Shown piece after piece: positions 22,548-29,209 of a DNA stretch of 64,000 nucleotides. The notes beneath the pieces were generated by a model. That model saw nothing but the letters and a program-made list of their open reading frames with translations, did no database searches and was not told the DNA's origin. Where the stretch lies: NCBI GenBank assembly GCA_026874595.1, contig CM049315.1, forward strand, positions 58,960,889-59,024,888, written 5' to 3'. Position 1 is the first letter of the stretch; the number at the start of each line of letters is the position of its first letter. Made by a program: the position numbers and the translations under genes. The stretch is from Sipunculus nudus (taxonomy: Eukaryota > Annelida > Sipuncula > Golfingiida > Sipunculidae).

Positions 22548-22954
22548 GTATATATTCCATTATTCACTGGAGTAATGGTATATTTATGAAGTATTAGCAT
22601 TACAACTGAATCAGTTAATGCCAACGTATCATAACATATGTTGTTTCCTATTAGACTTTTCAAAGTACAACATTTGTGCAATGAAATACACAATCCATTG
22701 TTTAACCAAGGAGTTAATTTATAGTGTCTGCTTGGTTTAACTAGTGATCTCCACTGACAGAGTAAGTAGGCAGAGGTTTATGTGATTTTCATGGTTTGTG
22801 TGTATTGGTCTGTGCATTATCTTAGAAAGTTGTCCATGAATTATGATGACATTTTTATGGAAAAATTACCCTTGGGACCAAGAACAATGGGAACAGTTTG
22901 AGGATGGGTTGGTAAAATCAAAAATATATACCTTTTTGATCAGGCCAATTTGCC

Positions 22955-25560
22955 TTTTTAGCTCAGCTGACTATAAGTCATCTGAGCTATAGTTGTGGTC
23001 CATTGTCCGTCGTCTGTCCGTCCATCCGTCTGTCCGTCCGTCCCTCCGTCCGTCCGTAGATGTGGCACGTTTTGAAACCGTAAGACCTAGGAATCCAAAA
23101 TTCGGCATAATGTTAGATGTCCCCAAGATCTCCTACCAAGCCGAAAACTGGGTCTTTGCGACTTCGTTCCTTTGAGAAATTAAGGAAAAACCTCAATTTT
23201 TTATTAAAAACCTATTTTCTCACTTCAGGACTGCCTAATATCTAAACCAATCATCTGTTTTTCCTCATATTAACCATAAATATTCCTCTATATAGTTCCT
23301 ATGTACATGCCATAATTTATGTCTGTATTATATAATTTAAAAAAGTTATGGCCCCAAACATAATGCTTTTTGTAAAAAATCAGGAAAGATATTTCATCAC
23401 TTAACACAAAACATGTTAAAGCTATGGACTTTTTTCCAGTAATATAACTTTAATTAATCAAAATTAAATTGTATACCCAAAATTAGATCAAAATCTTTTA
23501 TATTTTTTAAAATATTAACAAAAATAAAAAATTGGTACCTTAAATTTTGCCCAAATTTGACCATGGCACTTTTTTTCCTGTAAGTACTGTGGATTTAATT
23601 TTCACAGCATGTTTTTGTTAGCATTTTGTCTGTTAACACCAAAAATTTGAAACCAGTTGATCAAAAACTGTAGATTTTATTCAAGTTTTCAAGCACCATG
23701 TAACATATTGTTTACATCAAGCTAGTTTCATGCAGTTTGCAAAGAGCTCAGTGCCCCAGCTTCAGCTCTCAGTTCCTAAAATTGGGCATACAATTAGATG
23801 TCTCCCAAATCCCCTACCATGCCAAGAATTTGGTCACTAGGACTTAATACCTTGGAGATATTAATGAAAAACTTCATTTTTTCCACTAAAAACCCATTGT
23901 TACACTTCAAGACTGCCTAATATCAAAACCACTGATCTGACTTTAATCATATATAATATACATATTTTTCTATACATTCTCTATGCAAATGCCAGAAATG
24001 ATGTCAGTATTGCGTAATTGTTTTAAGTTATGGGCCCAAACATAATGCACTTTGTAAAAAATCAAGAAATATCTTTACTCCCTTAACAAGAGGATTGCTG
24101 AAGCTAGAGATTTTTTGTCAGGGATGTAACATTATTTAATCAAGATTCAATTGAATACCCAAAATTAGTTCTGAATTTTTCAAATATTATAAGTTATTAG
24201 TATAAATATAAATTAGTACCTTAAATTTTGCCCAGCTTTGACCATGGCACGTTTGTTTCCTGTGAGCACTGTTGATATAATTTTCATATCATGCACACAT
24301 AAGGATTTCAGCTTTTTAGTTTAGAAAGCTGTTAGAAATTGGCCAAAAATTGTAGCTTTTATTAATGTTTTTGTGAGACCATGTCATAACCTTGGCTCTC
24401 TCTAGCCCCTCTTGAGTCACCTGTATGTTGACCTTGTTGAACTTTCAGCAAATTATGCATGCTTGAGGCAGGCCTCAAACTGGGGCAGCCAGGCAGCTTA
24501 TGGCCAGCCACAGTTGATCCAGGTGTCCAACCCAACTCATCTAGTAGTTTTAACCAACAACATAACAGTAAACAATAAATTAATAATTTTTTATTGATTT
24601 TTAATAACAAATTAAAGAAAAATAGAAAAGGAATTTGTTAGTTGACAATAACAGGAAATTAACTTGCAGTTACTGATGATATAAGAATCTTGTATCGATG
24701 GATAGAATGTCACGTATTCCAAATAACACCATGCAGTCACCTATGATATTTTTCAGGTCAATTTTAATGATAAAAAAGTAAATCATATTATTCATTACTA
24801 ATCATTAGGGATCATATGAAGAAAATTAATGATAGACAAAGATGCAAATTGTGAAATTAGTCAAAAATGAATATATTACATTTATTTTTTTTTTAATATA
24901 AATAAAAGCCATAAACCCAGGTACTTATGATCATTATTTAAATGTGTGAATTTTGTATATTCTGGATTCTCAACATCATTGTTTGGTGAAAACTGAATAA
25001 ATACCAGGCATGGTGCGAATACTTTGCAACTGTATTTAAATACGAATATGAATATGTACTCCATGATAAAATTTCATTCATAAGAATGGGAATTCAGGTA
25101 AAAATGAAAGTATATGAATACCAGTGCAAATACTTTCAAAATGTATTCATGAATGCATTCATTAATATATTCTTTAATATTATTTTTATAATCATTTTAG
25201 TTATATTTTATTTTAAAAAATCATACTATTCTTGTATTATTTTTAATAAAAATTATATTTGGGACAATATTTGTAATTTTTTTTAATAAATAGTTAAACT
25301 CTTATATTATATGTTCTGCTCATAAGTTATATGGCCAAGTCAAAACTGTGTGACAATAGCACTCCATTTGTTAATAAAATAAATGAAATCAATCCTCTTC
25401 CCTGTCTCCAAAGGTACTATCAAAATCATACATAAGCTAAACAACAACAACTCATAATACAGCTTATTTTTTTACCACATAAAACCAGCATGTGCCTCAT
25501 TTCTAAATCATATTTTTTATCATATATAACAACTGAGCGCCGTGACCCATAGGTCCCTTG
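22955..25560 (+). mobile_element. Helentron-like hairpin element, twin copy 1 (2.6 kb)
   Basis: Starts TTTTTAGCTCAGCTG with the family hairpin at 22959-22989, then (CCGT)n to about 23058. Two internal units about 680 bp apart, each with CTGCCTAATATC, AAACCACT... and TATGGGCCCAAACATAATGC or a variant, are followed by a ~1 kb tail. The 3' end has GACCCATAGGTC (25544-25555) and CTTG at 25557-25560, then TTT. The right end (AACTGAGC) pairs with the left GCTCAGC less perfectly than in the other copies. Non-autonomous: no Rep or helicase motif. It is followed, after the 35-bp minisatellite, by a second copy in the same orientation. Confidence 0.82.
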
Positions 25561-25734
25561 TTTGTGGGCTGTTTTGATCTGGCCAATTTGCCTTTTTTGT
25601 GGGCTGTTTTGATCTGGCCAATTTGCCTTTTTTGTGGGCTGTTTTGATCTGGCCAATCTGCCTTTTTTGTGGGCTGTTTTGATCTGGCCAATTTGCCTTT
25701 TTTGTGGGCTGTTTTGATCTGGCCAATTTGCCTT
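25561..25734 (+). repeat. 35-bp minisatellite, five units, between twin elements
   Basis: GTGGGCTG starts at 25564, 25599, 25634, 25669 and 25704, an exact 35-bp period with one base change (AATTTG to AATCTG). Each unit is GTGGGCTGTTTTGATCTGG followed by CCAATTTGCC and a T run. The sequence left of twin copy 1 (GATCAGGCCAATTTGCC) is the unit's second half. The sequence right of twin copy 2 (TTTGTGGGCTGT) is its first half. The units therefore represent the pre-insertion target. A minus-strand frame through it reads a repetitive Lys/Gln peptide, which is an artefact. Confidence 0.93.
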
Positions 25735-28363
25735 TTTAGCTCAGCTGACTATAAGTCATCTGAGCTATAGTCGTGGTCCATTGTCCGTCGTCCGTCCGTC
25801 TGTCCGTCCGTCCGTCCGTCCGTCCGTCCGTCCGTCCGTAGATGTGGCACGTTTTGAAACCGTAAGACCTAGGAATCCAAAATTCAGCATAATGTTAGAT
25901 GTCCCCAAGATCTCCTACCAAGCCGAAAACTGGGTCTTTGCGACTTCATTCCTTTGAGAAATTAAGGAAAAACCTCAATTTTTTATTAAAAACCTATTTT
26001 CTCACTTCAGGACTGCCTAATATCAAAACCACTCATCTGTTTTTCGTCATATTTCCTATAAATAATCCTCTATATAATTCCTATGTATATGCCAGAAATT
26101 AGGTCTGTATTATATAATTTAAAAAAGTTATGGGCCCAAACATAATGCATTTTGTAAATAATCAGGAAAGAAATTTTATCACTTAACACAAAACTTGTTA
26201 AAGCTAAGCTCTTTTTTTCCAGTAATATTTCTTTTATTAATCAAAATTAAATTGTATACCCAAAATTAGATCAAAATCTTTTAAATTTTTTAAAATATTA
26301 GTAAAAATAAAAAATTGGTACCTTAAATTTTGCCCAACTTTGACCATGGCACGTTTTTTTTCTGTAACTGCTGTGGATTTAATTTTCACAGCATGTTTTA
26401 GTTAGCATTTCAACTGTTAACATTAAAAATTTGAAACCAGTTGATAAAAAAATGTAGATTTTATTTAAGTTTTCAAGCACCATGTCACATATTGCTAGTG
26501 TTATGCAGTTTGCTAGAGCTCAACTCCCGAGCTTCAGCTCTAAGTTCCTTAAATTTGGCATACAGTTAGATTTCTCCAAAATCCCCTACCATGCCAAGAA
26601 TTTGGTCACCAGGACTTAATTCCTTTGAGATATCAATGAAAAACTTCATTTTTCCATTAAAAACCCATTGTTACACTTTAAGACTGCCTAATATCAAAAC
26701 CACTGATCTGACTTTGATCATATATAATATACATATTTTTCTATACATTCGCTATGCACATGCCAGAAATGATGTCAGTATTGTGTATTTTTTTTAAGTT
26801 ATGGGCCCAAACATAATGCACTTTGTAAAAAATCAAGAAATATATTTACTCCCTTAACAAGGGCATTGCTGAAGCTAGAGATTTTTTTGTCAGGGATGTA
26901 ACATTAGTTAATCAAGATTCAATTGAATACCCAAAATTAGTTCTGAATTTTTCAAATTTTATAAGTTATTAGTATAAATATAAAATTAGTACCTTAAATT
27001 TTGCCCAACTGTGACCATGGCATGTTTGTTTCCCGTGAGCACTGTTGATATAATTTTCATATCATGCACACATAAGGATTTCATCTTTGTAGTTTAGAAA
27101 GCTGAAAGAAATTGGCCAAATATTGTAGCTTTTATTAATGTTTTTTATGAGACCCTGGTAGACTTTGGCTCTCTCCAGCCCCTCTTGAGTCACCTGTATG
27201 TTGACCTTGTTGACCTTTCATCAAATTATGCACGCTTGAGGCGAGAATCCAGGCAGCTTATGGCCAGCCACAGTTGATCCAGGTGTCCAACCCAACTCAT
27301 CTAGTAGTTTTAACCAACAACATAACAATAAACAATAAATTAATAAATTTTTATTGGTTTTTAATAACAAATTAAAGAAAAATAGAAAAGGAATTTGTTA
27401 GTTTATAATAACAGGAAATTAACTTGCAGTTACTGATGATATAAGAATCTTGTATCGATGGGTAGAATGTCACATATTCCAAATAACACCATGCAGTCAC
27501 CTATGGCATTTTTCAGTTCATTTTTAATGATAAAGAAGTAAATCATATTATTCATTACTAATCATTAGGGATTATATGAAGGAAATTAATGATAGACAAA
27601 GATGCAGTTGATAATATTAATCTAGATTCCTACTGTGTCTAGTGTGTACATTGATGTGAAATTAGTCCAAAATGAATTTTTTACAGTTATTTTTTAATAT
27701 AAATAAAAGCCATAAAACCAGGTACTTATTATCATTATTTAAATGTGTGAATTTTGAATATTCTGGATTCTCAACATCATTGTTTGGTGAAAACTGAATA
27801 AATACCAGACATGGTGCAAATACTTTGTAATTGTATTTAAATACGAATATGATTATGTACTCCATTATAAAATTTCTTGCATAAAGAATGGGAATTCAGG
27901 TAAAAATGAAAGTATATGAATACTCGTGCAAATACTTTCAAAATGTATTCATGAATGCATTCATGAATATATTCTTTAATATATTTTAATAATCATATCA
28001 GTTATATTTCATTTTAAAAAATCAAAAGATTCTCTTATTATTTTTAATAAAAATTATATTTGGGACAATATTTGTAATTTTTTTAATAAATAGTTAAACT
28101 CTTAAATTATATGTTCTGCTTATAAGTTATATGGCCAAGTCAAAATTTGTGTGACAGTAGTACTCCATTTGTTAATAAAATAAATGAAATCAATCCTCTT
28201 CCCTGTCTCTAAAGGTACTATCAATATCATACATAAGCTAAACAACAACAACTCATAATACAGCTTATATTTATTACCACACAAAACCAGCATGTGCCTC
28301 ATTTCTAAATCATATTTTTTGATCATATATAACAGCTGAGCGTCGTGACCCATAGGTCCCTTG
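25733..28363 (+). mobile_element. Helentron-like hairpin element, twin copy 2 (2.6 kb)
   Basis: Collinear with twin copy 1 over its full length. It has the hairpin at 25737-25767, a longer uninterrupted (CCGT)n block (about 25785-25838), the two internal units, and the tail. At the 3' end it has CAGCTGAGC (28333-28341), GACCCATAGGTC and CTTG at 28360-28363, then TTTGTGGGCTGT. It carries about 45 bp near 27604-27655 that copy 1 lacks. Many small differences show that the two copies are not an assembly duplicate of one read. Confidence 0.83.
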
Positions 28364-29092
28364 TTTGTGGGCTGTCCTGTCAGTGTACTATGTTCAGGCA
28401 CTTGATACATTTACACTCATATATGGTTACATACTCTAAAATCTAGTGGGAGTTGGGAAAGTGGGGGGTGGGGGGTGGTGCTTAATTAAAAAATTATATC
28501 TTTTAGTCAAGATCATAGGACATTGGGTCAAGATCAAAAGCAAACAAACAGAAATAACCATAGAACTGATCTGAAATTAAAATAAAAGACACTAATGTAT
28601 TAGGTATGAGGCAGATCCTCCATGTCTGTGTAACATAACTGTAAAATATTGAACAGGTATTGACCTGACTGCCATTTATTGGACATGATCAGTACAGCTG
28701 TGTTAGGGTGGGAGTTGGGGGGGGGAGCCAAGAATTACACCAGATGTTACCATGTATAATGTATTCCTCATTTAATTACCTGTAAAACGCATTACTTTCC
28801 TGTTCCTGCCTGAAAAATTTAAGGGGCCACAAAGTCTAGGCCTTCACTGTAGCATTTTACTGTGTTTAAAGGCAATGGACTAAACCCTGCATGGTTATAT
28901 TAATATAGGTCCCCAGGGCATTGTGGACTGGTTGGTCACTGGTTTTTACCTCACCAGTGCCAGAAAGACAAAATGGGGAAAATCTTGGTGAAACTCAGAT
29001 TTGTTCTAGTGTCTTCATAACATGCAGGTTTAATATCACTTCTGGATTATACAAGCCCTGGCATGCTTTCCGATACCTTAAATCCAGAAGGC

Positions 29093-29209
29093 TTGATAAA
29101 TACAAGATAATAGTATTTAGTTGATAAATACGATATAATAGTACATGTAGTTGATAAATATGATATAATAGTATGTAGTTGATAAATACAATATAATAGT
29201 ATGTAGTTG
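29093..29209 (+). repeat. 28-30-bp minisatellite, four units
   Basis: TTGATAAATAC/TGATATAATAG plus TATGTAG or a variant is repeated four times in tandem, one unit being two bases longer. Non-coding. Confidence 0.9.

Follow-up and report, generated by a model that had tools for sequence, protein, structure and literature searches.

Two HINE-like elements in one 35-bp minisatellite of Sipunculus nudus: probably two separate insertions

Two elements of about 2.6 kb lie in the same orientation within a single 35-bp minisatellite of Sipunculus nudus, in a stretch of 64,000 nucleotides of contig CM049315.1 (the window). The arrangement raises the question of whether one element was duplicated in tandem or whether the same array was hit twice. 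The most probable answer (probability about 0.88) is that the pair represents two separate insertions of different age, made by members of one HINE-type family into units of one local minisatellite. This reading builds on element boundaries, empty and filled sites, a separate ancestry and a target motif that could all be established.

Copy 1, the older element, would have entered the T run of the first unit at a time when at least two units were probably already present. Subsequently, copy 2 would have entered the T run of the last unit, very recently and at the same base. The T run would fix the orientation of the incoming element, so that both copies point in the same direction, and each insertion would add two T. 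Mobilization was presumably provided by a rolling-circle Rep/helicase acting in trans.

The minisatellite and its filled and empty units

Copy 1 (22960-25560, + strand, 2601 bp) is an older HINE-like element that starts with AGCTC and ends with CCTTG, and copy 2 (25738-28363, + strand, 2626 bp) is a very young one. The minisatellite between them (25561..25737, +) has a period of 35 and consists of four intact empty sites (T6) with a half unit at each end. Tandem Repeats Finder (TRF), applied to the spacer, placed the array at 25556-25737 with 5.2 copies of period 35 and 97% matches. The 177 bases of the spacer comprise five left and five right halves, which make up the four intact T6 sites. 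The outermost halves of the array are found to the left of copy 1 (22934..22959, +, TTTTGATCAGGCCAATTTGCC followed by T5) and to the right of copy 2 (28364..28375, +). Since these outer halves flank the elements, the element-free array amounts to six units, in which GATCWGGCC starts at 22938, 25576, 25611, 25646, 25681, and 25716. Each unit offers the target CC-TTTTTT-GTGG; four units are empty (T6) and two are filled, where the site reads T5, element, T3.

The original prediction of twin elements of about 2.6 kb flanking a 35-bp minisatellite with empty sites is borne out by the coordinates, TRF and the junction search described below, and its filled T5 plus T3 and empty T6 sites are read at this array as claimed. 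It also held that an element had entered the T run of a unit, that a minisatellite had been hit and that the empty units reveal the termini. All three statements stand, with the proviso that up to two T are of ambiguous assignment. One base differs at copy 1 (GATCAGG in its left flank, GATCTGG in the array units).

The unit junction was searched in the assembly (1,426,538,692 bases, up to three mismatches) and gave four matches, all at this array, while the reversed control pattern gave 0 matches in the 1.43 Gb. Chance is excluded. A dispersed-repeat origin of the 35-bp unit is likewise ruled out, because all four junction matches are at this locus. A separate 28-bp tandem repeat (4.1 copies) occupies positions 29093-29209 of the window, about 700 bp to the right of copy 2.

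Anatomy and target site of the elements

Judged by their anatomy, both copies can be classed as putative HINEs (non-autonomous Helentrons) that would be close to Cg_HINE of the oyster. The 5′ end carries a hairpin formed by a subterminal repeat and its complement, which was read from the sequence in copy 1 (22959..22989, +). In copy 2 (25737..25767, +), on which all folding of hairpins and palindromes was run, it has a predicted fold of -10.6 kcal/mol, which none of 200 shuffles matched (z -5.15). A GTCC microsatellite follows (23005..23057 in copy 1, 25783..25839 in copy 2, both +) and precedes the central tandem repeats in both copies, as in the bivalve Cg_HINE/Pearl type. These central repeats are two diverged units of about 680 bp each, found at 23098..24372 (+) with a spacing of 682 in copy 1, where they belong to the repeat families D1-D3, and at 25880..27145 (+) with a spacing of 671 in copy 2. 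Near the 3′ end of copy 2, the subterminal inverted repeat CAGCTGAGC (28333..28341, +) is the complement of GCTCAGCTG near the 5′ end; the pair is exact in copy 2 and has one mismatch in copy 1. It is followed by the palindrome GACC-CATA-GGTC (25544..25555 in copy 1, read from the sequence, and 28347..28358 in copy 2, both +), which ends 5 bp before the 3′ end of the element, just ahead of CCTTG. The palindrome stretch of copy 2 is a weak fold, on a par with its shuffles (z -0.74), of which 48 in 200 do equally well. The ends of the family read AGCTCAGCTGA and CCATAGGTCCCTTG. No stop-to-stop frame of at least 110 aa occurs within 22960-28363, and an Rfam scan of the window returned nothing at the gathering threshold.

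The same combination is reported for Cg_HINE of Crassostrea gigas and for bivalve Pearl elements: a 5′ subterminal inverted repeat with a complementary repeat, a GTCC-type microsatellite at the left (seen in several oyster Cg_HINE elements), central tandem repeats, a 3′ subterminal inverted repeat with a palindrome, and T-rich or TT sites (PMC7492417). The likeness to Cg_HINE and Pearl is one of described anatomy, and the central repeats differ, as Pearl has up to six of about 160 bp and the present elements have two of about 680 bp (PMC7492417). HINEs of mites and DINE-1 of Drosophila share the subterminal inverted repeats, the 3′ palindrome, a T-rich site bordered left and right by two or more T and the lack of coding capacity (PMC4067079). 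The distances from the 3′ end are shorter here than in the mite families: 22 bp versus 38-60 for the 3′ subterminal inverted repeat, and 5 bp (with a weak fold) versus 8-35 for the palindrome (PMC4067079).

The target was defined on 35 copies, namely 37 loci (L002-L038, where L009 is copy 2) minus three dropped for inexact ends (L006, L007, and L008), plus copy 1. The left site is TTWTT in 34 of these copies and the right site is TT in all 35. On the left, T occupies positions -1, -2, and -5 in 35/35 copies and -4 in 34/35; at position -3, 29 copies have T and 6 have A. Only 12 of the 35 still have T at -6, which makes the target a sharply delimited TTWTT, as opposed to just a long run of T. 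On the right, T is found at +1 and +2 in every copy and at +3 in 22. Insertions without a T run had been named in the original prediction as evidence against it, and they were found in part, given the six copies with A at -3 and a target that is TTWTT.

Two further insertions (L018 and L022) are located inside older family members, so that their empty site can be read, and their flanks overlap by exactly TT. L010 shows the same count of two additional T by comparison with that stretch of the window copies. A gain of exactly TT was therefore read at the minisatellite (T6 to T5 plus T3), L018, L022, and L010. At two other self-insertions, L005 and L023, no clean TT overlap is seen. The flanks of L005 overlap by five bases against copy 2 and by none against copy 1, and those of L023 leave a gap of three against copy 2; the host copy is diverged in both cases. 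The two T gained per insertion are either carried at one end of the element or duplicated from the target, and the data are alike for both.

Elsewhere in the window, TTWTT occurs at 18.7 sites per kb, counted on both strands. Because it is this common, the target alone fails to explain two copies in one 210-bp array, or their place in its outermost units. The double hit may perhaps be plain luck, given the frequent target and a family that is possibly very abundant. Both elements occupy outermost units, which for two of six units at random has a chance of 1 in 15.

Ancestry of the two copies and the alternatives

The copies were compared with each other and with their relatives in a set of 39 aligned family members. 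A maximum-likelihood (ML) tree and an AU test were run on 26 chosen rows of the 39, a non-random selection made up largely of the closest matches to the two copies. Copy 1 and copy 2 are 93.9% identical, with 6% of aligned sites different and 19 gap events. Copy 2 differs from L010 (C11:77870378-77873003) by one mismatch in 2626 positions without gaps (99.96%), and its other near relatives are equally close (L013, 99.96%) or nearly so (L011, L012, and L014, 99.8%). The copies at 99.96% sit on other contigs. The nearest relative of copy 1 among the 39 is L002, at 95.7%. Private substitutions within this set number 42 in 2569 sites for copy 1 and 0 in 2626 for copy 2. In the ML tree, the end branch of copy 2 has length 0 and belongs to a starred young clade, and that of copy 1 measures 0.022 and belongs to an older clade. 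Grouping the two as a clade is rejected by the AU test on the 26 rows (p 1.0e-5) and lowers the log-likelihood by 375. As the copies are not sisters, the pair is best understood as two insertions well separated in time. Copy 2, which is free of private changes, may still be segregating in the population. Gene conversion of one copy by the other was considered and rejected: by 250-column block, copy 2 is 99.6-100% identical to L010 throughout, and no block departs from it.

The alternative that survives best concerns the order of events within the array. Copy 1 could have entered a site of few units, the array between the elements could have grown later, and copy 2 could have struck its newest end. 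This history is possible, though rather unlikely, and it refines the reading of two insertions more than it opposes it. It would account for the T that units 2-6 share where unit 1 has A, for the outermost location of both elements, and for the low divergence of the array, where, with the T run left aside, the six units show only two substitutions in 180 bases. The count also agrees with an array that dates back as far as copy 1, for which 2.9-4.9 substitutions would be expected and the probability of two or fewer is 0.14-0.45. Later growth also requires that copy 1 was followed on its right by an empty unit, and thus at least two units beforehand. The comparison of copy and spacer divergence proposed with the original prediction is accordingly compatible with an array of the age of copy 1, and the array may also have grown after copy 1 arrived.

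Two separate insertions also explain the ancestry of the copies better than a duplication within the array, which was the first of two origins named in the original prediction. A single insertion would have been followed by unequal exchange between units, duplicating the filled unit, and the copies would have diverged later. The same position in the unit, the same orientation and the period-35 spacer are what such an exchange would leave behind, but it predicts sister copies, and copy 2 resembles copies on other contigs (99.96%) much more than it does copy 1 (93.9%), with the sister clade rejected (AU p 1.0e-5). The exchange survives only if the duplicated copy 2 was later converted from end to end by a young dispersed copy. 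Such a conversion would give the same sequence and must stop exactly at both ends. This origin is very improbable, and the proposal of the original prediction is not upheld. An assembly artefact, in which one element and its array were assembled twice, is just as improbable, since copies that are 6% and 19 gap events apart and match different subfamilies make a misassembly of one copy into two, considered at the outset, unlikely.

The least probable origin is the second one named there, rolling-circle transposition that missed its stop and made a head-to-tail tandem in one event, with a spacer that expanded afterward. Tandem Helitrons from missed termination have been described (PMC4067079), and the genome contains many head-to-tail contacts of this family (see below). 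The tandem also needs sister copies, and the AU test that rejects them (p 1.0e-5) argues against it. Furthermore, the spacer is host DNA that holds both flanks, which is not expected of a concatemer. Other contacts speak the same way: neighbors at L050 are rejected as sisters, and at L006, L010, and L022 there are closer copies than the neighbor. For other pairs, such as L034, a rolling-circle tandem may apply.

Head-to-tail contacts across the genome

Exact head-to-tail junctions of the family, with at most 60 bases between the searched end motifs, number 250 in the genome (125 on each strand; control 0), and they show that the arrangement, for which the original prediction proposed to test other loci, occurs elsewhere. 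Spacer classes were taken from 100 listed junctions of the 250, all on contigs C1-C6. Forty spacers are pure T (3-7 bases), 11 are short A/T strings (up to 8 bases) and 49 are others; among the others of at least 7 bases (n=48), 42 have TTTTT at the end and the other 6 lack it. The 51 pure-T and A/T spacers of 3-8 bases are about nine times as dense per base of length as the rest of these 100. Abundance is hinted at by flanking sequence, a biased sample in which 106,560 bases contain nine exact 5′ ends. At 100,000 copies, about 214 such pairs would be expected by chance, and the claim is therefore limited to the surplus of very short spacers. Self-targeting above chance, as an explanation of the 250 junctions, was dropped in view of a possibly very high copy number. 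The window itself has five exact 5′ ends of the family (4268, 12740, 22960, 25738, and 31868), all on the + strand and all after TTTTT.

Ten junctions (L043-L052), hand-picked among those with pure-T or TTTATT spacers, were inspected. Only at L050 are both neighbors whole and alike (95.6% identical), and here sisterhood is rejected (AU p 1.7e-53). The neighbors at L049 match in segments (about 90%, with 98% over one segment of 51 bp), those at L051 (2258 and 923 bp) share 615 of 736 aligned bases, and the neighbors at the remaining seven are not comparable end to end. Additionally, neighbors at L006, L010, L022, and L034 were ranked by identity on one 44-sequence alignment. They are 95.1%, 85.7%, and 94.5% identical at L006, L010, and L022, respectively, with other copies closer in each. 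At L034 the neighbor ranks third and second nearest, by differences of 0.1-0.5%. Six pairs can thus be judged: two are non-sisters by AU test (the window pair and L050), three are not nearest by identity (L006, L010, and L022) and L034 may go either way. In the contact pairs with a clear age gap (L010 and L050) the upstream element is the younger; in the window pair, 177 bases apart, the older element is upstream.

Three of these sites have peculiarities of their own. At L034 (upstream of base 1500) and L006 (C9:15650952-15656528), the upstream copy breaks off in a T run, about 43 bp short of its 3′ end, and abuts the start of the next copy; at L034 the missing tail is absent after the inserted copy. 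This truncation resembles the 3′-truncated inner copies of rolling-circle tandems, or else a nested insertion with a deletion. L022 (C4:3213579-3219201) shows stacked self-insertions in which two successive copies are interrupted at the same T run, at element position ~617-623. Four of the 100 listed junctions (C1:89523392, C1:89846174, C5:85004897, which is L053, and C6:18843567, which is L054) share a closely similar spacer of about 58 bp, and the alignment of L053 with L054, at about 88%, extends over almost the whole of the compared stretch. Either these junctions stem from a composite that duplicated or relocated in one piece, or they are part of a larger repeat.

Clusters and tandems of Helitrons, including distantly related ones directly side by side, are already described (PMC4067079), so the phenomenon is not new in kind. 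The tandems attributed to a bypass of termination are head-to-tail as here, and the shortened upstream copies of L034 and L006 are cut near the 3′ end; the window pair differs from such tandems in its separate origins and in a spacer that is a host minisatellite (PMC4067079 and PMC7492417). Among the papers listed in searches of an open-licence library, judged by titles and abstract openings, none deals with Helentron copies striking one minisatellite twice.

The locus is mostly ordinary and carries a lesson on tandem Helitrons. It holds its own empty-site controls, and it illustrates how two unrelated hits by a rolling-circle type transposon can pass for a convincing “tandem duplication”. Missed termination has been the reading given to tandem Helitrons, and the sisterhood of neighbors is a simple check, which a family with 250 contact junctions would allow at large scale. 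Adjacency of copies is not peculiar to this locus, as the family is commonly in head-to-tail contact. A tentative generalization, held at somewhat less than even odds, is that head-to-tail stacks of the Helentron type arise mainly by serial independent insertion at the same T-rich site and not by missed rolling-circle termination. Each insertion would leave TTWTT on its left and add two T, by which the landing site would be kept and stacks would grow upstream. A minisatellite with the target in each of its units would then offer the same process many sites.
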